Made by a program: the position numbers and the translations under genes. From a virus, in the IMG/VR virus record IMGVR_UViG_3300032223_001361, positions 1 to 20,315 of that record: a stretch of DNA of 20,315 nucleotides. One strand, given 5' to 3'. The stretch's first letter is position 1, and each line of letters begins with the position of its first letter. The notes beneath the pieces are model-generated. The model was not told where the DNA came from. It saw only the letters and a list, made by a program, of their open reading frames with translations, and did not search any database. This document shows positions 804-16,105 of this stretch, in pieces.

Positions 804-1089
804 AGAGAGATTGCGCGCGAGCGCGTTCATTGCATTTTCTTCCGTGTCAAGGGGGGTGTGGGATACGTAGTCTGGCGCGGCATCGGAAATCTTTTTGAGA
901 CGTGCGGGATTTATACCGTAACGGCAAGCATGTCGTTCGCACACAAACAATCTGCGGATTCGGACGGTTGGCATCATAGGCCAAAGCGAGGCGTAGCGAA
1001 CTAATGCTTGACAACGCGACAAAGCCATGCAAGGCAACACATAGGATGCGATAGCCGCGTCAACCCCTCTCACGATTGGACCCCGCCTC
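804..1089 (+). other. Intergenic gap between the DUF6456-like gene and the packaging module
   Basis: This is the only gap over 100 bases in the window. I see no convincing gene: the short ATG frames (930, 24 codons; 1004, 16 codons) lack a ribosome binding site. No tRNA T-loop consensus was seen. A GC-rich hairpin follows the previous stop (813-826). A perfect TTGACA lies at 1008-1013, but no TATAAT-like hexamer occurs at 16-18 bases, so a sigma-70 promoter is not supported. The position just before the terminase genes is where a promoter, packaging site or transcription boundary could lie; nothing in the sequence proves any of these. Confidence 0.6.
813..826 (+). terminator. Weak candidate terminator hairpin
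   Basis: GCGCG (813-817) pairs with GCGCGT-type bases at 822-826 around a CGAG tetraloop, giving five base pairs including one G-U. It lies 10 bases after the stop at 803. A T-rich stretch follows (838-845 area) but not immediately, so it is not a classical intrinsic terminator. Its position at a module boundary is the main support. Confidence 0.22.
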
Positions 1090-1491
1090 ATGGCTCAAGC
1101 GCCGATGGCTACCGCTGCCCCGACTGCCCCGACTGACCCGATGGCCGGCGGGACTGATCCCGGCATGGCCGGCGGTGGCGACGAGGCGGGCGATATGTCG
1201 TCCGATGTCGTCGTGACAATCTGCAAGACGGACGACGGATCGTATATGGTCTATGCCGGGGATGAGCCGGATGCGGATGCCGACGATGCGCCGGCCGGTG
1301 GTGGCCCCGCTCCTGCTCCGCAGGGCACGCCCGCCGATAGCGTTGGCGCTGCGCTCAAGGCCGCGATGGACATTCTCCAGGCCGATGCGTCGAGTGCCGG
1401 TGCCCCCGGCAGCGCCGACGATCAGCTTGCGGCCGGATATAATGCCCCGACCGCGCCAACCCCGGCTTCCGGGCCGTCGTCCAAATACTGA
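1090..1491 (+). CDS. Acidic Ala/Gly/Pro/Asp-rich phage protein of unknown function
   Basis: A 133-residue protein of low complexity at both ends (Ala, Pro, Gly, Asp) around a small ordered core, VVVTICKTDDGSYMVYAGDE (about residues 37-56). A second conserved-looking segment contains SADDQLAAGYN near the C-terminus. It is strongly acidic, with a DADADDAP run. No signal peptide or membrane segment is visible. The ribosome binding site is weak (GGA about 10 bases upstream). Its stop overlaps the start of the next small gene (TGATG), so the two are translationally coupled. I recall similar uncharacterised proteins beside terminase genes in alphaproteobacterial podovirus-like phages, but no function can be given. 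Confidence 0.75.
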   Translation: MAQAPMATAAPTAPTDPMAGGTDPGMAGGGDEAGDMSSDVVVTICKTDDGSYMVYAGDEPDADADDAPAGGGPAPAPQGTPADSVGAALKAAMDILQADASSAGAPGSADDQLAAGYNAPTAPTPASGPSSKY

Positions 1492-1628
1492 TGGCTGTCA
1501 CCGTTCCCCCTCCGCGCATCGGCAAGGTTCCGGTGGCGATGATCGCGCGCAAGCCACCGACCAAGACGCGGGCGAAGCGCAAGGCAAAGATGGTTGTGAT
1601 CGTCAAGCCGGGGTTGATTAACCAGTGA
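1491..1628 (+). CDS. Small basic protein (45 aa), unknown
   Basis: ATG at 1491 overlaps the upstream TGA, and the TGA at 1626-1628 overlaps the GTG start of the terminase small subunit at 1625. The 45-residue product has eleven Lys/Arg, mostly in RKPPTKTRAKRKAKM (about residues 20-34), and no acidic residue. This exactly nested arrangement with both neighbours is the main evidence that it is real. If left unannotated, there would be a 133-base hole in an otherwise continuous operon. It could bind nucleic acid or the acidic neighbour, or it may act mainly to couple translation into the terminase gene. No family is recognised. Confidence 0.6.
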   Translation: MAVTVPPPRIGKVPVAMIARKPPTKTRAKRKAKMVVIVKPGLINQ

Positions 1629-2149
1629 GTAAAGCACCTCGGCCTCCCGGTCAAAAATCGGGCGGTAGTCGTCCACTGCGAGACAACCCCAAAGTCGCGC
1701 CGTTCGTTGAGCGATTTCTGACCAACGGGCATAACGCGACCGACGCGGCCCGCCACGCGGGCTACACGGGATCGGGTATCAGGGTCAACGCCAGCCGCAT
1801 GATGCAACGAGCCGATGTCAAAGAGATGATCGCGGCGCGTGCCAAGCGGGTTGCTGCGAAGGTCGAATTAACCGGGGAAGCCTGGGCGCATGAGGTTGCC
1901 GCGTTAGCATTCTCCAATATCGGCGACCTTTACGACGATGCTGGTCAGTTAATCCCGATCCACCTGCTACCGCCCCACGTCAAGGCCGCGATTGCCGGGG
2001 TGCGCCAGCTATCGGACGGCTCGATGATGGCGATATTCGGGGATAAAAACGCGGCGCTGGCGATGGCAGCCAAGCACCTCGGGCTGTTTGAGAAGGACAA
2101 TTCGCAGCGGGCGGAAAACGTCCGCGTCACAGTCAATCTGTTGGGATGA
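1625..2149 (+). CDS. terS: Terminase small subunit
   Basis: A 174-residue protein starting at GTG 1625, overlapping the previous stop (GTGA). The N-terminal part carries the expected helix-turn-helix, FVERFLTNGHNATDAARHAG followed by ASRMMQRADVKEMI (about residues 22-65). This is the pattern of the Terminase_2 family, which recognises the packaging site and hands the DNA to the large subunit. The middle and C-terminus (residues 80-160) include a helical oligomerisation-type region and KHLGLFEK, commonly seen at the end of this family. The length is normal for the family. The position just upstream of the large terminase gene agrees. DNA specificity (cos or pac) cannot be read from the sequence. 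Confidence 0.9.
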   Translation: MSKAPRPPGQKSGGSRPLRDNPKVAPFVERFLTNGHNATDAARHAGYTGSGIRVNASRMMQRADVKEMIAARAKRVAAKVELTGEAWAHEVAALAFSNIGDLYDDAGQLIPIHLLPPHVKAAIAGVRQLSDGSMMAIFGDKNAALAMAAKHLGLFEKDNSQRAENVRVTVNLLG

Positions 2150-2153
2150 TCTT

Positions 2154-2369
2154 ATGAACAATCTGGAAACCGTCATCGCCGTTCTGGAACGTCACCGCGA
2201 GGGCCGCCATTGGGCGGATTTGAACGTTGCGCGCGATGTGCTGTCGGCGTTGAACCTTCCGGAAAGTGAACCCGCTCCTATGTCGATTGCCGAAGCAGAC
2301 GCGGCGATGGAAACGGCCACGCCGGCAACCACCAATGACGCCCCAGCGGAGCCGTCTGCCACCGCATGA
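2154..2369 (+). CDS. Small unknown protein between terminase subunits
   Basis: A 71-residue product from ATG 2154, four bases after the small-terminase stop. The frame extends upstream to 2088, but that part overlaps the terminase gene and is rejected. The first 40 residues form an amphipathic helix-rich segment (NNLETVIAVLERHREGRHWA, then ARDVLSALNLP). The rest is an Ala/Thr/Glu/Pro-rich disordered tail. The stop overlaps the ATG of the large terminase gene (ATGA), implying coupled translation. No family recognised; it may be a packaging accessory or simply a coupler. Confidence 0.65.
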   Translation: MNNLETVIAVLERHREGRHWADLNVARDVLSALNLPESEPAPMSIAEADAAMETATPATTNDAPAEPSATA

Positions 2370-3727
2370 GCGATGCGCCCGACATAGCGTGGAAAGACGT
2401 TCGGGTAGACCTACCCCGCAAACTCGCGTTTTTGATGGAAATGCACCCCTACAAGATAGCCCACGGGGGGCGGAATTCTCTAAAATCCTGGTCGTTCGCC
2501 CGCGCGCTGCTGACCCTCGGCATTCATCAATCGCTCCGCATCCTGTGTGCCCGTGAGGTTCAAAAGAGCCTAACGGAATCGGTCCACCAACTATTGCAGG
2601 ATCAAATTACCGCGCTTGGGTATGACAGCCATTACGAGGTGACGGAGAATGCAATCCGGGGCGTCTACAAGGATACGCTATTCCGGTTCACGGGCCTCGC
2701 CGACCATACCGTTGACAGCATGAAATCCTATGAGGGTTTTGATATCTGCTGGGTTGAGGAAGCGCAATCGGTTCAAAAGCGGTCGTGGCAGATAATGTTG
2801 CCGACGATCTTCCGAACGAAGAACTCCGAGGTTTGGGTATCGTTTAATCCCGGTATGGACACGGACGAGGTATGGGAACGGTTTATCGTCAACCCGCCGG
2901 AAGGCGCAGTCGTCCAGGAGATGAACTGGCGCGATGCCGTCGCGTGCGGATGGTGGTCCTCGGAACAAGAGCGGTTGCGGCAATACGATCTAATTTATTC
3001 CAAGGATGATTACGATAACATCTGGGAAGGCAAACCCCGGACTGCGGTTGTTGGCGCTATCTACGGGCGCGAAATCACTGAAATGGTGACGGAACAACGT
3101 ATCAGGGCGATGCCATACGATCCTCGGTTGCCGGTCCATCGGGTATGGGATTTGGGATGGAACGACCTGATGACCGTCATCATGGTTCAAAAGCCGACGC
3201 CGGCTTCGCTTTCCATCATCAACTATATGGAAGATTCCCAGATAACATATACGGAATTGCTCGCGGCAATGGACAAGTTGCGTTACCGCTGGGGTGACGA
3301 TTGGTTGCCGCATGACGCGGCGCAGCACCATCCGACGAGCGGGACCAACGCGAGGCAGCAGCTTATGGCGTTGGGGTGCAAGGTTAGGGATATTCCTCGA
3401 TCCGATCCCGAGGCCCGCATACGGGCGGCGCGCATGATGTTCCCGCGTATCTATCTGGACAATACCAAGCGGGACGCGGTGCCGGATCGCCCTGATAGGC
3501 GGTTGGGCGCGGGATACCTGATGGAGCGGCTCAAGACATACCGCCGGTCAGTGCCTCGGAACACGAAGGAACCTGCCGGGCCTGTCCATGATATCGCGTC
3601 TCACGGTGCGGATGCCTTTGGCGGTTTGGCCGAGATTGTGGACCGGATTAGGAATGAGACTGATCGCGTTGCGCCGGTAGTCGCCGGCTTTCGTAATGCC
3701 GACATGAGTATGGGGATGTTAGGCTGA
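2366..3727 (+). CDS. terL: Terminase large subunit (PBSX/Terminase_3-type ATPase-nuclease)
   Basis: A 453-residue packaging motor that translocates DNA into the capsid with ATP and cuts it with a C-terminal RNase H-like nuclease. The Walker A-like motif is HGGRNSLKSWSFAR (residues 33-46), Walker B is FDICWVEEAQ (125-134) with catalytic Glu 131 or 132, and the coupling motif is WVSFNPG (157-163). The nuclease begins at VWDLGWND (260-267) with Asp262, and the last acidic motif is in HDIASHGADAF, roughly residues 408-418. Length and order fit the PBSX-type family. The P-loop is unusual: family members normally have Gly or Ala where this one has Leu39. The start overlaps the previous stop. The gene ends in TGA, with a 34-base gap before the next gene. 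Confidence 0.95.
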   Translation: MSDAPDIAWKDVRVDLPRKLAFLMEMHPYKIAHGGRNSLKSWSFARALLTLGIHQSLRILCAREVQKSLTESVHQLLQDQITALGYDSHYEVTENAIRGVYKDTLFRFTGLADHTVDSMKSYEGFDICWVEEAQSVQKRSWQIMLPTIFRTKNSEVWVSFNPGMDTDEVWERFIVNPPEGAVVQEMNWRDAVACGWWSSEQERLRQYDLIYSKDDYDNIWEGKPRTAVVGAIYGREITEMVTEQRIRAMPYDPRLPVHRVWDLGWNDLMTVIMVQKPTPASLSIINYMEDSQITYTELLAAMDKLRYRWGDDWLPHDAAQHHPTSGTNARQQLMALGCKVRDIPRSDPEARIRAARMMFPRIYLDNTKRDAVPDRPDRRLGAGYLMERLKTYRRSVPRNTKEPAGPVHDIASHGADAFGGLAEIVDRIRNETDRVAPVVAGFRNADMSMGMLG

Positions 3728-3761
3728 TGTGTAAGTTTGAAAGCGCCTTGGAGGCAGTGGG

Positions 3762-4175
3762 ATGTTGAAGTCTCTCCTTTTAATCGCCGCGCTGGCGTTG
3801 TTCGCCATGCCAGCCCGTGCATCGATGGTTATCGCGTGCGATGACTTCAACGCATCGAGTTGGACGGCATCCCCGCAGCACCCCTGCCCGGCGGGTGTGG
3901 CGCTGTTGGCACCCATAACGGGGTCTCAGGAAGCGTTGGGCGTCGTGACAGCGACCACATTGACGGTTCCTGCTGGTGCGACAATCGCCACGATCACGAT
4001 CGAAGGTAATTCCGTCCGATACCGCTGCGATGGCACGGCTCCCACCGCATCCACGGGGTCTCTTTTGGCGGTGGGAACGGCTGGGTTTGTCCTGGTCGTC
4101 AACCCATTATCGGCCTGTCAGTTTATCCAGACTGCCGCCACGGCGACGCTGGACGTCGAGTATTGGCACCAATAG
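3762..4175 (+). CDS. Small Cys-containing protein with a signal peptide, virion-associated-like core
   Basis: A 137-residue protein with a clear ribosome binding site (GGAGG, 3750-3754). Residues 1-20 form a textbook signal peptide: Lys3, a Leu/Ala hydrophobic core, and a PARA-S cleavage context after Ala20. The mature part has four cysteines (26, 42, 89, 119), compatible with two disulfides in the periplasm. The C-terminal half (VRYRCDGTAPTAS ... FIQTAATATLDVEYW) resembles a small beta-sandwich found in many phage head-region proteins. Those usually lack a signal peptide and these cysteines. It lies between terminase and portal. Export to the periplasm is inferred from sequence. A role in superinfection exclusion, adsorption or lysis is possible but unproven. 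It ends in a genuine TAG. Confidence 0.75.
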   Translation: MLKSLLLIAALALFAMPARASMVIACDDFNASSWTASPQHPCPAGVALLAPITGSQEALGVVTATTLTVPAGATIATITIEGNSVRYRCDGTAPTASTGSLLAVGTAGFVLVVNPLSACQFIQTAATATLDVEYWHQ

Positions 4176-4180
4176 CCTAA

Positions 4181-6727
4181 ATGGCCGATCCGCTATCCAT
4201 ACTCCCTGACGACGTGCGGGGCATAATCGCGCCCCACATAGAACCCGATACGTCGCCGGTTCTGGACACTATCGGGATCGAGATTGCTGGAAAGCGCGAT
4301 GAGGCGAAAGCCGCTCGGGCATCGTCAGGCATCGAGGCGACATGGAAAGAGGCGGAAGAAGCTTATATCGGGATTGACGACGCGAACCGGAACGAATTTG
4401 CTGCTGGGCAATGGTATAAGCCGTCGTCCCTGAGCGGGCCTGTCACAACGACCCGGATGCCGTCACAGACGGACTATAAGTCTACCGTCTACCTGCGATT
4501 AACCTCTCGGTATGTGGACGCGGGCGCGGCGAAGCTGGGGGAAATCCTTCTGCCGGCGGATGGTAAGGCTTTCAGTTTCCACGAAATGCCGGTGCCGGAA
4601 CTGACAAAGGCAAAGGACGACGAAAGCCAAGTCGTGCATAGCGGGCTTGGTGTGCCCCTTACGCGGCCTGCAACGCCTGACGATGGACAACCCCCGCCGG
4701 CACAACCGGGCGCGCCAGCGCCGGCCCGTGTTCCGCTTAGGGTCAAGGATTTAGCGACCGAGGCGATAGAGATTGCTCGCAAAGCCGCTGAGGCGGCGGA
4801 GGAACGTGTTTACGATTGGATGGTTCAAGGCCAATTCCGGGGCGAAATCCGCAAGACGTTGTTCGATGCGGCACGGATTGGGGTGGGGATCGTCAAGGCT
4901 CCGGTGCCGAAGTCCAAGCGGTCCACGGTGGTCAACAAACTGCCGGATGGGGTTAAGATCACGATCAAGGAGACGATTGTTCCCGTGGTCGAGTGGAAAG
5001 ACCCATGGAACATTTTCCCTGACCCGGCGTGCGGCGAGAATATCCACGACGGGGATTATATCTTTGAGCGGGACTATATGGCCGGGCGTCAGGTGAAGGC
5101 GCTCAAGCGGCTTCCTGGATACATCGGGTCGCAGATTGACAAGGTGTTGGAGGAAGGCCCGAACAAGATCAACAAAACCGACAACCGGGGCGATCAGGGG
5201 AACAAAACCAAAGATCGTTTCGAGGTTTGGTATTTCTACGGGGCGCTGACGAAAGACGAAATGGCGGCGATTGATGCGGCTTCGGGATGTCCCCAATCGG
5301 ACGATCTAACGGATAACGTTTATGCGCTGGTCACGCTGATAAATGACAGCGTTGTGCGCGCCACGATCAATCCGCTGGACAGCGGGGCGTTCCCCTACCA
5401 TTCCATGCCGTGGCAGCGCCGGGCGCAACAATGGGCCGGGGTTGGCATCGCGGAACAGATGCGGACACCTCAAAAGGTGGTTAATGCGGCGCTTCGGGCG
5501 CTATTGAACAATGCGGGGAAATCGGCAGGCAGTCAGTTGGTTATCAACCAGATGGCAATTCGTCCGGCGGATGGAAGCTGGGCGATAACGCCGGATAAAA
5601 TATGGTTTTCGACGGAGGATGGACCGCCCGACGTTCGGCAGGCCATGTCTGCAATCCAGGTTCCGAACGTCACGCAAGAGCTTATGAATATCATCACCTT
5701 GGGCGAGCGGTTTGCCGAGGAAACCACGTCCATTCCGCTGATTTCGCAGGGGCAGTCAGGATCGACAACCCCGGATACGTTCGGCGCGGCACAGTTGCAG
5801 AATAACAACGCAAACCAGCTTCTCCGGTCGGTTGGGTATTCGTTCGATGATTACATAACGGAGCCGATGGTCCGCCAGTTCTATGAGTGGTTGCTGTTGG
5901 ACCCGGATGTGCCGGATGACGAAAAGGCCGAGTTCCAGATTGACGCTCACGGCAGCGTTGCCCTGGTGGAGCGGGCCATTCAGGATCAGACTATTGCCCA
6001 GATGGGGCAGATGGCAGCCAATCCGATCTATGGGATAGACCCCAAGAAATGGTCTGACGAGTTCCTGCGGTCCAAGAAACTTGACCCGGGCCGCATGAAA
6101 TACACGGATGAGGAACAAGCCAAGATTGACGCGGCACCTCCGCCGGAAGCGCCGGCTATTTCCGTCGCCAAGATCAATGCGGACACCCAGCTTAAATTGG
6201 GCGTGATGAAGCAACAGGTGGACCAACAGACAGCGCAGGCCGAGGGGCAGATTGCTGCTGCTGCCCATGTTTTGGAGGGTGGCAAGGCTCAGATTGAGCA
6301 ACAGCGGGTGCAAGGCGAACTGACGATTGCGGCGCACCAAATCCAGATGGAGCACGACCGGGCGCTGATGGATTACGCGAACCGGGAGAAAATCAGCCTT
6401 GACGCTGCAAAGGCGCAGTTGGCCAAAACTGCCATGGAATTGCAAACTGAGCGAGATTTGAACGCGGCGAACAACGCGGTTGCCCTTCATAAGCACCGGA
6501 CGGCGCCAGCGGTGGTCAAGACACCGGGGCAGATAAAGTCACCGACACAGGTTCCGGGCAGGGCTGCGAATGGGCAGTCGTTTTCACAGAGCGCGAGTGG
6601 CGGCAAACAAGGCGGTGGCAGCATACCTCCCGCTGCCTTGGCGCATCTTGTCCCCGGCCACGTCACGACGTTCGGCAACGGGCAAAAATGGACGGTTGAG
6701 AATGGCCAGCCTCGGAAGGTTGCATAG
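4181..6727 (+). CDS. Portal (head-to-tail connector) protein, large podovirus type
   Basis: An 848-residue protein in the portal position directly downstream of terminase. The N-terminal region contains the helical wing start (about 40-110, including EEAYIGIDDANR and YKSTVYLRLTSRYVD). A Pro/Ala-rich insertion lies at about 155-185. The core has VEWKDPWNIFPDPACGENI and IFERDYM (about residues 269-305), typical of large portal proteins of N4- or P22-like podoviruses. A helical clip/stem region follows, with MPWQRRAQQWAGVGIAEQMR. Residues about 660-770 are a long Gln/Ala-rich coiled coil that could form a barrel extending into the capsid, as in P22-like portals. The C-terminal tail is Gly/Ser-rich. 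No ribosome binding site is evident before ATG 4181. The gene ends TAG, overlapping the next GTG. Confidence 0.88.
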   Translation: MADPLSILPDDVRGIIAPHIEPDTSPVLDTIGIEIAGKRDEAKAARASSGIEATWKEAEEAYIGIDDANRNEFAAGQWYKPSSLSGPVTTTRMPSQTDYKSTVYLRLTSRYVDAGAAKLGEILLPADGKAFSFHEMPVPELTKAKDDESQVVHSGLGVPLTRPATPDDGQPPPAQPGAPAPARVPLRVKDLATEAIEIARKAAEAAEERVYDWMVQGQFRGEIRKTLFDAARIGVGIVKAPVPKSKRSTVVNKLPDGVKITIKETIVPVVEWKDPWNIFPDPACGENIHDGDYIFERDYMAGRQVKALKRLPGYIGSQIDKVLEEGPNKINKTDNRGDQGNKTKDRFEVWYFYGALTKDEMAAIDAASGCPQSDDLTDNVYALVTLINDSVVRATINPLDSGAFPYHSMPWQRRAQQWAGVGIAEQMRTPQKVVNAALRALLNNAGKSAGSQLVINQMAIRPADGSWAITPDKIWFSTEDGPPDVRQAMSAIQVPNVTQELMNIITLGERFAEETTSIPLISQGQSGSTTPDTFGAAQLQNNNANQLLRSVGYSFDDYITEPMVRQFYEWLLLDPDVPDDEKAEFQIDAHGSVALVERAIQDQTIAQMGQMAANPIYGIDPKKWSDEFLRSKKLDPGRMKYTDEEQAKIDAAPPPEAPAISVAKINADTQLKLGVMKQQVDQQTAQAEGQIAAAAHVLEGGKAQIEQQRVQGELTIAAHQIQMEHDRALMDYANREKISLDAAKAQLAKTAMELQTERDLNAANNAVALHKHRTAPAVVKTPGQIKSPTQVPGRAANGQSFSQSASGGKQGGGSIPPAALAHLVPGHVTTFGNGQKWTVENGQPRKVA

Positions 6728-7602
6728 TGGCCGATTGGACGCCTGAGAAGATCGAGCCGATCATGCCGCAAGGTTGGGATGTGGTGTCGCGCGCCCCGAC
6801 GTTGGCTGATGCTTGGGACGTGAACGGGCCGGCGATAGCGCAGAATATGCGGGACACGATGGCGGCGGTGCGTGATCCTCAGACTTGGACGGATGCGGCG
6901 CGGGAGTATGGACAGGCGTTGGTAGCGGGAACTTCGGCGCCGAAAGGCGTGCGGGTTTGGCATGGTTCCACAGCAAAATTCGATAAATTCGATTTAGGTA
7001 TGTCCGGGACGGGGGCGACTGCCGATGGATATTTCGCAAACCCTGAGAAATTGCCGCAATATATCTATTCTGCCAGCGAGAAGGACCATGCGGCTTTATA
7101 TGGGACGCCACAGCAATTTCAATTAAATGGCGCAATCCGCAATCATAATGTGGTCCCAGAGTTAAGGGAATGGGCTAAGGAATTAGGGTATAAGACACCC
7201 CAGAAAATGATTGACGATTATTTCGATGGCAACGTCTATCAAGCGTTGGATGCGGATAAATATTTTCTTGAAAAAATGCGCGCGGCTCAAAAGGATGGGA
7301 TTCCCAATATCAGCATTGATTTCGGCCCGCTTATGATGAAAATGAGCGACCGAAGCCAAAGTAAAGTTGGCAAGGTATATCTGTCATCTGATCCGGCACA
7401 GCTTGAAAAGGTGGTTGATACAACCGCACAGCCCGGAACTATCGCGGCCGGCCTCATGGCTGGCGGTGGTGCCGCTGCGATGGCGCAACCGGCTGAAGCC
7501 GCGCGCGCACCGGAACAAGCAACCCCGGCACCAATGGACGAATGGCAACCCGTAAGCCGTGAACCGATAGCGGCAGAACCTATCTCGGCAACCGTGCATT
7601 GA
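6727..7602 (+). CDS. Putative ADP-ribosyltransferase-fold protein in the head gene cluster
   Basis: A 291-residue protein from GTG 6727, overlapping the portal stop (TAGTG), with GGAAGG at 6714-6719 as ribosome binding site. Residues about 1-74 are a helical leader. Residues about 75-230 carry VWHGSTAKFDKFDL (77-90), GYFAN (101-105) and SEKDHAALYG, and end in KVYLSSDPAQLEKV. This layout matches the ART domain found in phage polyvalent proteins, in which the HGS histidine and the YFA tyrosine sit in the NAD pocket. A final catalytic Glu cannot be placed by eye, so activity is unproven. The C-terminus has a Gly/Ala hydrophobic stretch (about 238-255) and a Pro-rich tail. The ART part has about 45% GC, against 66-69% either side. 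It may be a virion-delivered effector like the T4 Alt type, by analogy only. Confidence 0.65.
   Translation: MADWTPEKIEPIMPQGWDVVSRAPTLADAWDVNGPAIAQNMRDTMAAVRDPQTWTDAAREYGQALVAGTSAPKGVRVWHGSTAKFDKFDLGMSGTGATADGYFANPEKLPQYIYSASEKDHAALYGTPQQFQLNGAIRNHNVVPELREWAKELGYKTPQKMIDDYFDGNVYQALDADKYFLEKMRAAQKDGIPNISIDFGPLMMKMSDRSQSKVGKVYLSSDPAQLEKVVDTTAQPGTIAAGLMAGGGAAAMAQPAEAARAPEQATPAPMDEWQPVSREPIAAEPISATVH
6955..7390 (+). other. Low-GC island covering the ART-like domain
   Basis: By hand count, 6961-7380 is about 45% GC (188 of 420). The flanking parts of the same gene are about 66% (6781-6960) and 69% (7441-7560). Codons ending in A or T become frequent only within this stretch. The boundaries coincide with the start (HGS motif) and end (VYLSSDP motif) of the ART-like domain, which suggests a domain acquired from a lower-GC source and still not ameliorated. 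Confidence 0.7.
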
Positions 7603-7829
7603 TCGCTCCCGACCCGCCTTTCATCCTCACGGAGAATGAAAAGGCTACGCTCTTGTGGGCGCGGATCAAAGGACACCTCAACGATAAACTGGCAGCGGCG
7701 CGGCGTCGCAATGACACCCCGCAGTCAGAACAGGAAACCGCAATGTTACGCGGTGAGATTAAGACCCTCAAGGGGATCATCGCCCTTGGGGACGACCGGC
7801 CAGTGACCGGAGATGATGGGACACCGTAA
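7599..7829 (+). CDS. Small head-module protein, unknown
   Basis: A 76-residue protein with TTG start at 7599 overlapping the previous TGA (TTGA). It is a helical, charged protein: ENEKATLLWARIKGHLNDKL (about residues 12-31), then a second helix, QETAMLRGEIKTLKGIIALG, with a disordered acidic end. I recall similar short proteins just before scaffold genes in related podovirus-like phages, and no function is known to me. No strong ribosome binding site is visible, so translation probably depends on coupling to the upstream gene. It could be a capsid assembly factor or part of the scaffold system. Confidence 0.75.
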   Translation: MIAPDPPFILTENEKATLLWARIKGHLNDKLAAARRRNDTPQSEQETAMLRGEIKTLKGIIALGDDRPVTGDDGTP

Positions 7830-7850
7830 GGCGCCCACGATGGAGCAAAC

Positions 7851-8669
7851 ATGAGCTTGGAAAACGACGCTAACGATAGCGCCTTGGAAGATGCTGACCT
7901 TGCGTCAGGATTTACAGGCGAGACGGTTGTAAAAGCAGCCAAGGCCCCGGACCCCGAAGTGAAGGCAGAAGTCGCGGAAACCCCACGACCGGAGCCGACA
8001 CCGAAGCCGGAATACGTGCGGTTGACCAAAAGCGATTGGGAAGAAGTGAAGGCTGCCGCTGCTAAGACGGCCTCTTATGACGCCCAGTTGTCCAAGGCGT
8101 TCGGCACGATTGGCAACCTGCAAAAGATCGTCAACGGGCTACAGTCTGCCAAAACGGGCGGGATCAAGCTGACACCGGAAGCTTTCGCCGAAATGGAGAA
8201 GGATTTTCCCGAGTTAGCCCAACAGACCCGCACGGCATTGGAAAAAGCTCTTTCAGGCGTCAACGGCAGTTCCGCCGATGCGCCAGACTTTAAGGCTTTG
8301 GCGGCAGAAATCGCCAACGCTCGCGAAGTGGAGGCACTGGAAGATGCTCATCCGGACTGGCGCACTATCGTCGGCGCGGTCGATATCACGAAAGAGCAAC
8401 CAAACGCGGGTAACCCGTTTCGGAAATGGCTCGCCACCAAAGACGCCACCTATCAGGCGCGCGTCAATGCAACCGAGTCCGCCGCCGTGATTTCTCGCGC
8501 GATTAATCTATTCCAAGCTGAGACGAAAGCATCAACCACCACGCCCGTCCGCGCCGATGCACGGTCAGAGCGTATCCGTGGAGCGGTGCAGCCTAAAGGC
8601 GATGGTGGTCCCCAGGCGCCGGGCAAAACTGACGACGACGAATTCCTCGCGGGTTTCAACTCGCGCTAA
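7851..8669 (+). CDS. Putative capsid scaffold protein
   Basis: A 272-residue protein with GGAG at 7842-7845 upstream. It directly precedes the major capsid gene, the usual place for the scaffold. Composition fits: an acidic disordered N-terminus (1-35), a Pro/Glu-rich linker (ETPRPEPTPKPEYV), then mostly helices including a likely coiled coil (about 60-100 and 125-165). A basic C-terminal stretch (VRADARSERIRGAVQP) is followed by an acidic DDDEFLAGF end. Scaffolds guide assembly of the capsid protein into a procapsid through a short basic C-terminal helix and are then removed. No protease gene or motif is seen nearby. The call rests on position and composition; scaffold sequences are poorly conserved. 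Confidence 0.8.
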   Translation: MSLENDANDSALEDADLASGFTGETVVKAAKAPDPEVKAEVAETPRPEPTPKPEYVRLTKSDWEEVKAAAAKTASYDAQLSKAFGTIGNLQKIVNGLQSAKTGGIKLTPEAFAEMEKDFPELAQQTRTALEKALSGVNGSSADAPDFKALAAEIANAREVEALEDAHPDWRTIVGAVDITKEQPNAGNPFRKWLATKDATYQARVNATESAAVISRAINLFQAETKASTTTPVRADARSERIRGAVQPKGDGGPQAPGKTDDDEFLAGFNSR

Positions 8670-8686: not shown

Positions 8687-9757
8687 ATGGCTGTTCAAAA
8701 CTTCTCCCTCACTCCCGGCCGGATTAACAAATACAAGGGCGAAATCCTGGCGCACGCAGTGCCCCTGGAAGTCCTCGGCAAGACTGGCCGGCAAATCCCG
8801 ATGCCTCGCAATCAGTCGGATACCTACGTCGCCCGGAAGTGGCTGCCGTATGGCGCGACCGCGACCAACGGGACAACCCAGAATGCGTTATTCCAGAACG
8901 GCACTGGGGACCGTGGCAACACCATCGCCCAAAACCACCAAATCCAGGAAGGCGTGACCCCTGCCCCTGACAGCATCGTGCCGCTGGATATCACGGTTGT
9001 GGTCCAGCAGTTCGGCTGCCTCTACGGGTTCACGGACAAGACATACGACCTGTATGAGGATGATATCCCCAAGGCGATGATCTAGCAGATTGGCGAGCGC
9101 GTCACCTTCGTCAATGAAATGATCATCTGGGGCGCGCTGCGTGGCTGCACCAACGCCTATTACGGGGGCACCGGCACATCGGTTGCAACCGTCAATGGCG
9201 GATTGACCCTCGGCATTGTTCGCAAGATCGCGAAGAACCTGCAAGCCAACCACGGCAAGCCGGTGAACAAGATGCTGAAGGCCGGCCCGAATTTCGGCAC
9301 CGACCCCGTTGCCGAAGGTTATACGGTCTATTGCCACACCGACCTGGAACCGGATATTCGCGACCTGCCGAATTTCATTCCTTCTGAAGCCTATGCGACG
9401 GGCGTTCCGCAGGCCAACGAAATCGGGAAATGCGAGCGGTTCCGGTTCATCACGTCCCCCGATCTTCCGTCCATTCAGGACGGCGGCGCGGCCATCGGTG
9501 CGACCGGGTTGTATTCCACAACCGGAACCAGCATCGACGTGTATCCGTTCATTGTGACGGCGCAGGATGCTTGGGGCCAGATTGCCCTGCGCGGTAAGGA
9601 CAGCCTTTCCCCGACGTTCCTCCCGCCCGGCGAAAAATCCAAGTCTGACCCGCTGGGTCAGCGCGGATACGCCGGCACGGCTTGGTGGAAAGCCGTTATG
9701 ATCGAAAACCAGGGATGGATGGCCGTTGGCTACGTCGGTTCCAAGGTTCTGGTCTAA
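8687..9757 (+). CDS. Major capsid protein, N4-gp56 family, interrupted by an in-frame amber codon
   Basis: Reading 8687-9757 in one frame gives 356 positions plus TAA, the size of an N4-gp56-type major capsid protein. The first 132 residues contain NKYKGEILAHAVPLEVLGKT, MPRNQSDTYVARKW and FGCLYGFTDKTYDLYEDDIP. Position 133 is TAG (9083-9085). The frame then continues without a shift with QIGERVTFVNEMIIWGALRG, GKPVNKMLKAGPNFGT and a C-terminal part ending GYVGSKVLV. The two halves together make the family; neither alone could form the HK97-like fold. No ribosome binding site precedes the ATG at 9119, so restart is unlikely. A CAG-to-TAG change fits (next codon CAG). Options are a mutation or sequencing error, suppression by host tRNA, or programmed readthrough. 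A strong ribosome binding site and the position after the scaffold gene support its identity. Confidence 0.9.
9083..9085 (+). other. In-frame amber (TAG) codon in the major capsid gene
   Basis: Codon 133 of the capsid reading frame, in the context ATG ATC TAG CAG ATT. The upstream and downstream codons belong to the same conserved helix region. Five other genes in the window end in TAG with another gene or another stop close behind, so TAG normally terminates here. Confidence 0.9.
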
Positions 9758-12192: not shown

Positions 12193-14303
12193 ACGCCGCC
12201 GCATCCCAATGGGCGCCGATAAAATACACCCAGACGCAGCTAGGCGGCGGGGTCACGCAGCAAGGCCAGCCATATCCGGGTGGTCTCGATCTTGTCACGC
12301 CGTCGCTGCGGTTGCAGCCGGGTGCCTTAACGGATGCGCTTAATTTCGAGATTGCCCCGTTCGGCGGGTATTCTCGGATTGATGGGTATGAGCGGATGGA
12401 CGGTCGCGCTTCCCCCTCGGGAGCGACCTATACCGTCCTGGTGTTGGCATCCTTCGTCACCCTCCCGACTATTGGCCAGACGGTCACACAGGATACCAGC
12501 GGCGCGACTGGGGTTATCATAGCCATCCGGCCGTCCAACCCGTCCTACCTCATTGTGACGAAAACGACGGGGGTGTTTGACGCAACGCACGCATTGACCA
12601 CGCCCGGCCCTATTTCTATCGGCACGGTCAATTCTCTGAGGACCACGCTGGATGCCGCGACGCAAGCGATCTATACAGCCGCCGCTGCTGATGTTTACCG
12701 CGCGCTCATTCAGCAAGTTCCGGGCAGTGGTGGTATCCTTGGCGTTGTCGCGATGGCGTTCTCTGGCACCGATCATGTTTACGCATTCCGCGCGAAGGTC
12801 GGAGGGACTGCCGTTGCGCTCTACAAGGCGAGCGGATCAGGATGGACGTTAGTTCCATTCTATAACATCGTGAGTTTCACCGCTGGCGGAACGGCTGTCC
12901 CGCTGGATGGTGACGTGCTGACGCAAGGCGGGGTAACTGCCACGATCAAGCGGGTTATGTGGCAGTCGGGCGCTTGGTCAGGAACGGCAGTCGGTCAATT
13001 CGTTGTAACCAATCCTGCCGGCGGCAATTTCGCTGCGGGAGCGGCCACGACGACCAGTGGCGCGACAATCACGCTGTCAGGCATTCAAACGGCGATCACT
13101 CTCCTGCCGGGCGGCAAGTTCGAATTTCAAAAGGCGAATTTCTCCGGTCAGCTTATAACACGCCGGATTTATGGCTGCGACGGGATCAATCAGTGTTTCG
13201 AGTTCGACGGTGACACATTGGCACCGATCAAGACGGGCCTTTCGCCTGACGCGCCTTCCCATATTCGGTTCCACAAGAATTACCTCGTCATATCGCAGGC
13301 CGCTTCTATCTTTGGTTGCGCGGCTGGGCTGCCATTCAAATGGAGCGCGGTTGACGGTGCATGGGAATTTGCGACGGGCGATACTGTCACCGGGTTAATC
13401 ACGCTTCCCGGCAGTCAGACCAACGCGACGCTTGGCGTTTTCATGCTGACAAATTCAGCATTTCTGTATGGGTCTGATCCGACCACCTTTAATTATGTGG
13501 CATTCAACACAGGAATAGGCGCGGTCGCCAAGAGCGTGCAAAACCTGTTCGATACGTTCTTTCTCGATGACCTTGGTGTTGTCACTCTCAAAACAACGCT
13601 CAATTGGGGTAATTTCCTTCCCTCCACCTTAACGAAAAATATCCTTCCATTCATCGCGCGGGAACGCGGCAACCTGTTAGCATCCTCGGTCCATAGGGCT
13701 AAGAGCCAATACCGCCTATTTTTCAGCGACGGATATGCGCTCTTTTGCACAGTCCTAAACCAGCAATATATGGGTGCCATGCCGATCCTGTTCCCTGCGG
13801 CAATGTCATGCGTTGACACGACAACCCTAACAACCGGCAATGAAGCGTCTTACGCGGGATCGTCTACAAACGGGTATGTTTTCCAGCTTGATATTGGGAC
13901 CAGTTTCGACGGCGCGGCCATATCGGCTTATATTGTGACATCATGGGACCCAATCCGCTCCCCCCGCATCCTCAAACGGTTCCGGGCCGCTTCAATAGAG
14001 GTCCAAGGCGGATCGTATGCGACTTTTCAATATGGCTATCAGCTTGGATATAATGTGTCGCAAATTGAACAAATCCCGGCGGTTCCCGTGGGTTTGAATT
14101 TCAGTTCCTTGCCTTACTGGGATTCTTTTGTATGGGATTCGTTCACATGGGACGGGAATGTGGTTTCCCCGAGTGATATTGACGAAACCGGGACGGCGGA
14201 GAACATCCGGGTCACGATCACGTCCGGCACGAATTACATCGCATCATATACGATCGCTTCGATAATCCACCATTATTCCATGCGTAGGGGGCTAAGGGTT
14301 TGA
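12189..14303 (+). CDS. Tail nozzle/tubular B-like protein
   Basis: A 704-residue, largely beta-strand protein starting at TTG 12189 (TTGA overlap; GGGGGT 6-8 bases upstream). The N-terminus has YPGGLDLVTPSLRLQPGALT (about residues 29-48), then FEIAPFGGYSRIDGYERMDG, a pattern I associate with large tail proteins next to the adaptor in podovirus-like phages. The middle part is Thr/Gly-rich. About residues 325-560 have propeller-like repeats (IYGCDGINQCFEF, FLDDLGVVTL, YRLFFSDGYALF). Near the C-terminus is a tandem aromatic WDSFVWDSFTWDG. In T7 and P22, the protein in this place forms the tail tube or nozzle below the adaptor. The assignment rests on order, size and fold type. Confidence 0.7.
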   Translation: MNAAASQWAPIKYTQTQLGGGVTQQGQPYPGGLDLVTPSLRLQPGALTDALNFEIAPFGGYSRIDGYERMDGRASPSGATYTVLVLASFVTLPTIGQTVTQDTSGATGVIIAIRPSNPSYLIVTKTTGVFDATHALTTPGPISIGTVNSLRTTLDAATQAIYTAAAADVYRALIQQVPGSGGILGVVAMAFSGTDHVYAFRAKVGGTAVALYKASGSGWTLVPFYNIVSFTAGGTAVPLDGDVLTQGGVTATIKRVMWQSGAWSGTAVGQFVVTNPAGGNFAAGAATTTSGATITLSGIQTAITLLPGGKFEFQKANFSGQLITRRIYGCDGINQCFEFDGDTLAPIKTGLSPDAPSHIRFHKNYLVISQAASIFGCAAGLPFKWSAVDGAWEFATGDTVTGLITLPGSQTNATLGVFMLTNSAFLYGSDPTTFNYVAFNTGIGAVAKSVQNLFDTFFLDDLGVVTLKTTLNWGNFLPSTLTKNILPFIARERGNLLASSVHRAKSQYRLFFSDGYALFCTVLNQQYMGAMPILFPAAMSCVDTTTLTTGNEASYAGSSTNGYVFQLDIGTSFDGAAISAYIVTSWDPIRSPRILKRFRAASIEVQGGSYATFQYGYQLGYNVSQIEQIPAVPVGLNFSSLPYWDSFVWDSFTWDGNVVSPSDIDETGTAENIRVTITSGTNYIASYTIASIIHHYSMRRGLRV

Positions 14304-16105
14304 CCAATCCATACTACGCCGCGTCGGGCAATCCTGGGACTGGATCGACGGGGCTTTCGTCCCTTATGCGTGCGGAATTTGCGTCGATCAGCGCCGCTTT
14401 TGACCTGTTGCCAGCATTTTCTGGTATTGGCGGGTTGGCGGTTGTCGTTAATGGTGGTGGGTCGGGGTTAACCCTCACAACCGGCCAACTTGCCCTCGCG
14501 GGGAATTTCTCGACTACGGGCGCTTTCAACACGGTATTCGCCCAGTCGGCATCGATCACGATTACGTTGCCGGGTGTTTCCGGGACAATGGCGACGCTGG
14601 CAGGGACGGAAACCCTAACCAACAAGACGCTTGTGGCTCCTGCGTTGGGGACGCCTGTGTCTGGCGTTATGACCAACGTCACCGGCACGGCGGCGGGATT
14701 GACGGCAGGGAACGCAACCACGGCGACCAATCAATCCGGCGGCACCGTGTCTGCCACGACCCTGGCGGCTTCCAGCACGGTATCGGGGCAAGGGTTTATC
14801 GACCGGCTTGCGACCCCAGGCCCAATTGGGAATACCTCTGCCTCAACCGGTGCATTTACGACGCTTTCCGCTTCATCGACGGTAAGCGGGTCCGGGTTCT
14901 CGACCTATCTTGCTTCCCCCCCGGCTATCGGCGGCTCCGCGCCAGCGGCGGGTGCATTCACGACATTAAGCGCCAGCAGCACGGCAACGGCTCCGACTGC
15001 CGCGCCGGGCACGAATACCACTGTGATCGCATCCACGGCCTTTGTCACCGCTGCGGTAACGGTCGAAACTAGCCGCGCCACGACAGCCGAGGCTTTGCTG
15101 GCGCCCTTGGCAAGCCCAACCCTATCAGGCACGCCGCTTGCCCCTACAGCCGCTCCTGGCACAAACACAACTCAGATTGGCAGCACGGCCTTCGTCACCG
15201 CCGCTGTGTTAGTGGAAACCAACCGGGCGACCACTGCCGAGGCGTTGCTTGCCCCAAAGGCCAGCCCGGCATTAACGGGGACGCCAACCGTTCCGACTGC
15301 TGCGGCAGGAACTAACACGACGCAAGCTGCCAGCACGGCCTTTGCAATGGCTATCCCAACGCCGGGATATTTGTTCGGATTGACCCTTTCCAACGATGGT
15401 GGGACGCCCAACACGGTTTTGGATATCGCCGCCGGGTCATGCGCTGACAGCACCAACGCGGTTAAGATCACGTTAGGCGCCTTTACCAAATCTACGGCTG
15501 GCTCATGGGCGGCGGGTTCTGGTGGCAATGGTATGGGCGCCGGACTGACGATTGCTAATTCGACATGGTATCATGTGTTCGCCATCATCAACACGGGCGC
15601 GGCAGATGCGTATTTTGATACGTCAATCACGGCGGCGAATAAGCCGGCGTCAACGACCTATTTCAGGCGCATCGGGTCATTCAAGACCGATAGTTCGGCG
15701 CGCATCGTTGCGTTTTCCCAGAATGGAGACCGGTTCGATCTGGCCGCGCCGGTTCTAGAGTATGGAGCAACAGCGGGCGTTATAACAGCCATCACCCAAA
15801 CGCTCGTCGCCGTGCCTACGGGGGTCGCTGTCGAAGCCATCCTATCGGGAGACATCGCGGATGCAACAAACAGTAACTCTATCCTCTACGTCTCCTCATT
15901 GTCGCAAACGAACTTGGCCGCGACTGTTACAAACCAGACTGCGCTTCTCGGGGGGGCCGCTTCAATTTACGCCGCAGCGTCTTTTTCCGACCTAAGAATT
16001 ATCACCAATGCGTCGGCTCAGATTCGCTGGCGGGTTAACTCCACTACCGCGAGTTTGAATTTAAACACGAACGGCTGGATCGACACCAGGGGAAGGTTTG
16101 CCTAA
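14300..16105 (+). CDS. Tail fibre protein with tandem repeats
   Basis: A 601-residue protein from TTG 14300, overlapping the previous stop, with AGGGGG at 14286-14291. The N-terminal part (1-130) is typical of fibres: NPYYAASGNPGTGSTGLSSL and TMATLAGTETLTNKTL. About residues 160-225 contain repeats of the GAFTTLSASSTVSG type. Residues 231-348 hold two and a third exact-length 50-residue repeats (TAAPGTNTT ... STAFVTAAV). The C-terminal 250 residues are a different, beta-rich domain ending NTNGWIDTRGRFA, likely the receptor-contacting tip. No chaperone-like intramolecular protease is recognised. The fibre binds the cell surface, so the C-terminal domain likely sets host range. Confidence 0.87.
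   Translation: MTNPYYAASGNPGTGSTGLSSLMRAEFASISAAFDLLPAFSGIGGLAVVVNGGGSGLTLTTGQLALAGNFSTTGAFNTVFAQSASITITLPGVSGTMATLAGTETLTNKTLVAPALGTPVSGVMTNVTGTAAGLTAGNATTATNQSGGTVSATTLAASSTVSGQGFIDRLATPGPIGNTSASTGAFTTLSASSTVSGSGFSTYLASPPAIGGSAPAAGAFTTLSASSTATAPTAAPGTNTTVIASTAFVTAAVTVETSRATTAEALLAPLASPTLSGTPLAPTAAPGTNTTQIGSTAFVTAAVLVETNRATTAEALLAPKASPALTGTPTVPTAAAGTNTTQAASTAFAMAIPTPGYLFGLTLSNDGGTPNTVLDIAAGSCADSTNAVKITLGAFTKSTAGSWAAGSGGNGMGAGLTIANSTWYHVFAIINTGAADAYFDTSITAANKPASTTYFRRIGSFKTDSSARIVAFSQNGDRFDLAAPVLEYGATAGVITAITQTLVAVPTGVAVEAILSGDIADATNSNSILYVSSLSQTNLAATVTNQTALLGGAASIYAAASFSDLRIITNASAQIRWRVNSTTASLNLNTNGWIDTRGRFA
14990..15343 (+). repeat. 150-base tandem repeat in the tail fibre gene (2.36 copies)
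   Basis: Units start at 14990, 15140 and 15290, spacing exactly 150 bases (50 codons). The first two encoded units are identical at 42 of 50 residues; the third stops after about 18 codons. DNA identity is lower than protein identity because of many synonymous differences, so the repeat is old and kept by selection rather than a fresh duplication. Confidence 0.9.

Follow-up and report, generated by a model that had tools for sequence, protein, structure and literature searches.

By sequence comparison, the small gene lying between the terminase and portal genes of this virus encodes a leader-bearing form of a protein that is widespread in phages, belongs to structural operons and usually carries no leader. 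We tentatively favor a reading in which its product is a Sec-exported, disulfide-stabilised jelly-roll protein, which would fold in the periplasm and serve as an accessory that meets virions or cell surfaces at lysis. The stretch of DNA analysed, hereafter the window, is a virus record of 20,315 bases; its relevant features are collected in table 1.

Table 1. Features of the window around the leader-bearing gene
Feature	Position	Strand	Basis
Exported four-cysteine protein (predicted), 137 aa	3762..4175	+	ORF list, sequence, comparison with L001
Shine-Dalgarno sequence GGAGG	3750..3754	+	7 nt ahead of the ATG; sequence
Large terminase gene	2366..3727	+	PHROG phrog_3717, E 2.8e-45; Pfam Terminase_3, E 4e-22
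SU10-type portal gene	4181..6727	+	Pfam SU10_portal, E 1.6e-9; PHROG phrog_332, E 3.1e-37
Sec-type signal peptide MLKSLLLIAALALFAMPARA (predicted), cleavage after codon 20	3762..3821	+	Sequence and rule-based scan
Fast-changing linker, residues 21-50	3822..3911	+	C26 at 3837-3839, C42 at 3885-3887; low model confidence
Jelly-roll-like domain, VR[WY]RxDGTxPTA phage family	3912..4172	+	Profile match E 3.9e-29 (profile built from an alignment that includes the window row); model; cysteine columns

The Gene and Its Start

The location between terminase and portal genes, given in the initial annotation, was confirmed by PHROG and Pfam matches on both sides, the phrog_332 family matched by the portal gene being the PHROG head-tail adaptor. 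The open reading frame begins with ATG and ends with TAG, 34 nt downstream of the terminase gene and 5 nt upstream of the portal gene. In MW202426.1, which holds a distant relative of the portal, terminase and portal genes abut with no gene between them.

A Shine-Dalgarno match of at least 4 nt is present at the leader start, and the internal starts of the window gene have none, save TTG codon 2, which shares the same GGAGG, and TTG codon 59 (AGGA at 4 nt). The sole ATG between leader and domain core is codon 22; initiation there was ruled out, as it has no Shine-Dalgarno match and is replaced by Thr in L001, a relative with 78% identity. In L001 itself, in-frame starts from the leader start to the domain core fall at residues 12 and 15 (within the leader), 47, 49, 51, and 58, and a Shine-Dalgarno-like match of at least 4 nt is found only at TTG 58 (AGGAG at 3 nt), already inside the domain. 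More generally, 9 of the 12 starts examined in leader-bearing members are preceded by a Shine-Dalgarno match of at least 4 nt at a distance of 6-9 nt. Reading of TAG as a sense codon was also ruled out, because the window gene and its L001 relative both stop at TAG just before the portal gene.

The Leader and the Linker

The N-terminus of the window protein has the features of a Sec type I signal peptide, namely a positive N-region, a hydrophobic core, an AxA-like site and a usable start, as judged by a home-made rule together with the start evidence. Cleavage is predicted between MLKSLLLIAALALFAMPARA and S, so that the +1 residue would be Ser21 and no cysteine. A lipoprotein was ruled out, since there is no lipobox, Ser21 follows the predicted site and the first cysteine is C26. 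Signal peptides were scored with two home-made rules, one strict and one crude, and genes were predicted with a simple caller written for this analysis; the strict rule accepts 19 of 1121 non-family genes in the loci gathered for this count, several of these 19 adjoining family genes.

The nearest relative among those found, L001 (which forms a pair with L002), offers a view of how the different parts of the gene evolve. Leader residues 3-18 are identical in the two proteins, with no non-synonymous and two synonymous changes over 16 codons, whereas all five codons of the cleavage site differ. The linker shows 10 non-synonymous and 8 synonymous changes, 10 of its 22 compared residues being changed while C26 and C42 are kept, and the domain part shows 42 synonymous against 15 non-synonymous changes over 92 codons; all four cysteines are kept between the two proteins. 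On this codon comparison, the leader is under selection, with good start signals. The signal peptide and cleavage context proposed in the initial annotation are thus confirmed, at the level of prediction, by the sequence, the start signals and the conservation of the leader relative to L001.

The leader start of L001 overlaps the end of its terminase gene, whose product is only 30% identical over 205 aa to the terminase of the window; the homology of the window to L002 (positions 3766-4175 for this gene) begins at the leader, and the terminase upstream is the distant one. Nucleotide identity to L001/L002 is 96% in the leader, about 69% in the rest of the gene and 91% over the whole 3024-nt match, which includes part of the portal gene. 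Judged from these alignments, the leader sits at a recombination boundary. Among viral contigs, a 24-base piece of leader DNA was found in L001 and L008 alone, L008 being the same contig as L002.

A Widespread, Mostly Leaderless Domain Family

Relatives were fetched by DNA-pattern scans for the core motif of the domain, the main one of which gave at least 119 stretches, and then confirmed with a profile. The family comprises at least 120 distinct domain sequences after removal of duplicates, and its VR-R-DG--PTA--G core is invariant across a 46-row alignment. Among the matches listed, 13 of 120 have a leader (the window protein, L001, L003, L005, L020, L027, L065, L122, L147, L148, and L150-L152) and 107 were counted as leaderless, 6 of these rows being cut at the 5' end, including 3 without an ATG before the domain. 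The leaderless sequences come from viral contigs (103), phage records (1), and genomes (3: L137, L138, and L140, of which L138 and L140 are weak matches); viral contigs were the collection searched most and are the source of most relatives.

Leaders and cleavage points of relatives were assigned by hand from N-terminal features. Among the matches listed, the strict rule passes 10 of the 13 leader-bearing members (L122, L148, and L151 fail it) and the crude rule 12, while only 2 of the 107 leaderless sequences are flagged, both within the domain. L148 is cut at the 5' end and L151 requires a TTG start. A first rule scan had flagged 10 members, from which L107 (hit within the domain) and L068 (start within the motif) were removed. 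L128 was rejected as a family member, its pattern match lying in another frame of a cellular gene. Scanning a genome collection for the cysteine motif returned Rhodoblastus acidophilus (L129; a phage-like region of strain DSM 137, which holds the nearest leader-bearing member in a named cultured strain) and one chance match, and 4 of 397 genomes of the order of Rhodoblastus contain a match, some of them weak.

The AlphaFold model of the domain has seven strands. Its blockwise pLDDT lies at 89-96 from model residue 41 onward, at 60-78 in the two preceding blocks, where the first strand is located, and near 50 in the linker; the model of a leaderless member, a type of protein that is typically about 90-105 aa long, reaches a mean pLDDT of 96.5. 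The window protein matches no significant family in PHROGs (best E-value 0.27) or Pfam (best 0.066), and neither do the relatives tested, five against PHROGs (best 0.019) and four against Pfam (best 0.053). A Foldseek search against the PDB gave no match at an E-value of 0.001 or less, and fold comparison likens the model to jelly-roll proteins of viral spikes or turrets, to a carboxylase domain and to cupin-like proteins, in each case at the common-fold level only, for which reason PDB fold matches were rejected as proof of function. In BFVD, 19 matches at 0.001 or less comprise 15 uncharacterised proteins, 3 without a name and 1 tail fiber protein. A tblastn search with the window protein against 50,697 phage records gave no match, and one with a leaderless relative in the same set gave one record.

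These data qualify two points of the initial annotation. Its likening of the domain to head-region proteins has no counterpart among the named head families of PHROGs and Pfam, although relatives do lie in structural operons. It had also held that homologues with the same domain and no leader would count against its reading; such homologues are the rule (107 of 120 among the matches listed), and the leader of the window gene is unaffected by this. Comparison across the family shows the leader, as assigned from sequence features, to be an optional add-on to a mostly leaderless protein of structural operons, and it flags an unannotated domain family that is present in many environmental phage contigs.

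Cysteines Accompany the Leader

The four cysteines of the window protein, at residues 26, 42, 89, and 119, are all in the predicted mature part, the codons of C89 and C119 (4026-4028 and 4116-4118) lying in the domain. The columns of C89 and C119 both hold cysteine in 4 of 112 sequences among the matches listed, all of them leader-bearing. At least two mature cysteines are found in 10 of 13 leader-bearing against 10 of 107 leaderless members among the matches listed (Fisher test, P = 3.5e-7, kinship ignored), or in 10 of 13 against 10 of 101 when the 5'-cut rows are left out (P = 5.9e-7, kinship likewise ignored); 97 of the 107 leaderless sequences listed thus have 0 or 1 cysteine. In a second test, we omitted the leader-bearing members tied to the cysteine-motif search (window, L001, L003, and L005), which left 6 of 9 against 10 of 107 among the matches listed (P = 1.8e-4, again with kinship ignored). 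The Fisher values overstate independence, because the tree leaves the number of leader origins unsettled: the best tree has six changes of which the starred branches force only one, a single origin for seven leader-bearing rows is not rejected (AU test, P = 0.152), and the tree-corrected test of leader against cysteines has one usable pair.

In other leader-bearing lineages cysteine pairs occur at other places, as EIC...TCF and EIC...FCF (L027 and L151), GYC...SSC (L152), AC-GYQ...TTC (L150), and IDC...FKC together with GCG...VCF (L020); L027 also has an N-terminal pair that by eye resembles that of the window protein. Pairs placed differently in each leader-bearing lineage are as expected of periplasmic folding. 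Three leader-bearing members have no mature cysteine (L065, L147, and L148) and L122 has three. The association between leader and cysteines among relatives lends support to the suggestion that the four cysteines would form disulfide bonds and, along with the leader and the start-site evidence, to the predicted export of the protein.

Gene Slots, Copy Number, and Exported Neighbors

Where the context of relatives was read, it was mostly that of a structural operon, and three kinds of phage have a gene slot that is taken by a leader-bearing member in some loci and by a leaderless one in others. Between terminase and portal genes, the window has a leader-bearing form, whereas L018 and L081 have leaderless ones (in L081 a gene for a 364-aa protein separates it from the portal gene). 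Between portal and capsid genes, the leader-bearing L027, whose copy L127 shows the portal gene, has a leaderless counterpart in L079; the genes separating the family member from the capsid gene include one in scaffold position, without a PHROG match in L027. The third slot follows the head-tail joining genes and is separated by one gene from the sheath gene; it holds a leader-bearing form in L065 and leaderless forms in L012 and L068, each of which has five genes in common with L065, the family member included, although the L012 locus stops before the sheath gene and the L068 copy of the family member looks frame-disrupted. One copy was found in the window record and in each of the seven records or genomes searched whole, five of which are leader-bearing (L129, L006, L003, L065, and L027); records may be fragments, in which a further copy would escape notice. 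Given this single copy per record, the leader-bearing gene seems to stand in for the leaderless form rather than to be added to it.

Among the matches listed, the next gene downstream encodes a protein with a predicted signal peptide in 5 of 13 leader-bearing against 7 of 98 leaderless members (P = 0.005; one of the seven, L012, is doubtful, and 9 leaderless members have no downstream ORF in their locus). Signal-bearing neighbors include GDSL-type proteins, and that of L005 matches a PHROG tail family (E-value 6.8e-20); L005 also has, two genes downstream, a gene that by eye is amidase-like. In addition, L041 encodes at 5832-8114 a 760-aa signal-bearing protein with a pectate-lyase Pfam domain (E-value 6.9e-17), and L050 encodes at 1023-3893 a 956-aa signal-bearing protein that is fibre-like by eye and matches no Pfam family.

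Other Genes of the Window and of Its Relatives

Several other genes of these loci deserve mention in their own right. The major capsid gene of the window (8687-9757) contains an in-frame TAG at 9083-9085 (KAMI*QIGER), while its relative in MW202426.1 (L131) is uninterrupted over 347 aa and matches both halves with 46% and 53% identity; the TAG may be a sequencing error, a mutation or a site of readthrough. Between portal and capsid genes, the gene at 6727-7602 has a weak match, below the cut-off (E-value 0.0043), to a polyvalent-protein ADP-ribosyltransferase domain, and the gene at 14300-16105 encodes a protein of 601 aa whose repeated APTAAPGTNTTQIGSTAFV-like stretches recall tail fibres (by eye). 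The terminase gene of L001 (2543-4708) encodes 721 aa with an insert that looks by eye like an intein, and is overlapped by a 236-aa ORF that is homing-endonuclease-like by eye. L122 encodes at 3516-6584 a long tailspike-like or fibre-like protein that opens with a signal peptide and matches no Pfam family. In L003 (6001-11602), a cluster of leader-bearing genes after the tail genes comprises genes for the jelly-roll protein, for a pair of GDSL-type proteins and for a protein that is NlpC/P60-like (below the cut-off).

Possible Roles of the Exported Form

An accessory that matures in the periplasm is favored because the exported form replaces the leaderless one in structural operons and because its exported neighbors include tail-type proteins. 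In such a scheme, expression would probably be late, together with the packaging genes, and signal peptidase would cut after Ala20. The C89-C119 and C26-C42 disulfides would then form in the periplasm, where the folded protein would stay until lysis. Acting as an adhesion protein or surface accessory, it may then attach to progeny virions or to surfaces that these encounter. The exported form would thereby do outside the cytoplasm the job that its leaderless relatives do in cytoplasmic assembly. The assembly of tailed phages is generally placed in the cytoplasm, and we know of no step in it that adds periplasmic proteins to virions.

The main rival to the accessory model is superinfection exclusion or receptor masking, a real if doubtful possibility: the exported protein would block related phages from the periplasm or outer membrane or, in the masking variant, keep released virions from sticking to their own receptors on debris. 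This is consistent with the leader and disulfide features, a surface domain of virion type could, once exported, recognise the same target on the surface, and lambda Lom, an exported protein encoded among tail genes, provides a precedent (PMC12309495). Several observations speak against it: the gene belongs to the packaging operon, where gaps of 34 nt and 5 nt leave little room for a promoter or terminator of its own, and the leader-bearing form replaces the leaderless one in the same slot, with no second copy in any of the seven records or genomes. Lipoprotein exclusion factors, such as T5 Llp, have a lipobox with a cysteine at +1, whereas the window protein has none. Slot location, replacement of the leaderless form and single copy number fit an accessory role at the virion or lysis stage at least as well as they fit superinfection exclusion, and a lysis role may be entertained for L005, given its amidase-like gene (by eye).

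It is improbable that the leader remains uncleaved and anchors the barrel in the membrane on its periplasmic side, perhaps as a factor for lysis or envelope remodelling. The single hydrophobic stretch near the N-terminus would suit an anchor, as would the long hydrophobic leader of L122 with charged residues behind it, and so would the vicinity of the amidase-like gene (by eye, two genes downstream) in L005 and of the NlpC/P60-like gene in L003. However, in the window protein a compact AxA-type site precedes a variable linker, an arrangement typical of cleaved leaders, and packaging, head or tail genes surround the window gene as well as most family genes whose context was read.

We consider quite improbable an incidental leader, in which case the protein would be cytoplasmic, an ordinary component of the virion or of head decoration with its hydrophobic N-terminus packed in the particle. 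Most fetched members are indeed leaderless, and those with context read are mostly in structural operons; however, residues 3-18 are unchanged while the cleavage region and linker vary, other members carry different leaders, again with good start signals, and both the cysteine association and the leaders of neighboring genes argue against it. A secreted effector working outside the cell and carried by the phage for the benefit of its host is very improbable, for although a Sec-type leader with cysteine pairs would suit one, the gene is part of a structural operon, an enzyme or toxin is suggested by no match in PHROGs or Pfam and by no close one in the PDB, and most relatives come from viral contigs (searched most), with matches in 4 of 397 genomes of one bacterial order.

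The accessory model can be extended, in a generalization that we hold rather unlikely, to some tailed phages using the host periplasm as a second folding compartment, with a swappable leader that shifts a domain between cytoplasmic and exported forms in the same slot. If so, surface accessories (the jelly-roll here; elsewhere tailspike-like beta-helix, tail-fibre-like and GDSL-type proteins) would be Sec-led, oxidised by the host disulfide machinery and stored until lysis, then joined to virions or used at the cell surface. Leaderless and exported forms at the same positions, with cysteine pairs tracking the leader, provide a clean natural comparison, which bears on whether virion accessories mature outside the cytoplasm or surface domains are recycled as exported blockers.

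Comparison with Known Systems

The leaderless member UOF78916.1 (MW202577.1, "hypothetical protein") has the same domain by profile (L130, E-value 9e-20) and lies, like the window gene, in a structural operon, shortly after a 397-aa gene in capsid position (by eye). Leaderless members differ from the window protein by the absence of leader and linker and usually by having 0 or 1 cysteine. Among proteins of known structure, the barrel of PM2 P1 aligns with the window model (Z 8.6, rmsd 3.4, 86 residues aligned) and with the leaderless model (Z 8.3, rmsd 4.2, 86 aligned), followed for the window model by HCIV-1 6h9c (Z 7.3, rmsd 2.6, 80 aligned), SH1 6qt9 (Z 7.0, rmsd 6.7, 87 aligned) and Bacillus Ena 7a02 (Z 6.8, rmsd 7.7, 92 aligned), the last with a score in the range of cupins. 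Identity to the turret or spike jelly-rolls and to Ena is 8-12%, and cupins and the carboxylase domain score alike, so that the likeness is at the common-fold level.

In the open-licence literature searched, we found no description of the VR[WY]RxDGTxPTA family, of its leader-bearing members or of forms with and without a leader in the same slot. T4 RI is a lysis regulator in a different gene context. PMC8385771 describes this antiholin as having a cleavable signal peptide and acting in the periplasm, and in that respect it resembles the window protein as a tailed-phage protein with a leader, predicted in our case. A few proteins with signal peptides are reported for two Bacteroides phages in PMC5723332, and the phage diversity-generating target proteins studied in PMC6199706 are stated there to be without signal peptides. 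Exported phage proteins are already known, among them T4 RI (PMC8385771) and lambda Lom (PMC12309495); the latter source describes Lom as an outer-membrane protein with a signal peptide encoded among tail genes. Lom and the window protein would share an exported product, predicted for the window, encoded within a block of structural genes. Compared by description only, they differ in that Lom is an outer-membrane beta-barrel of lysogens, whereas the window protein is predicted to be a small soluble jelly-roll with paired cysteines, encoded in the packaging operon.
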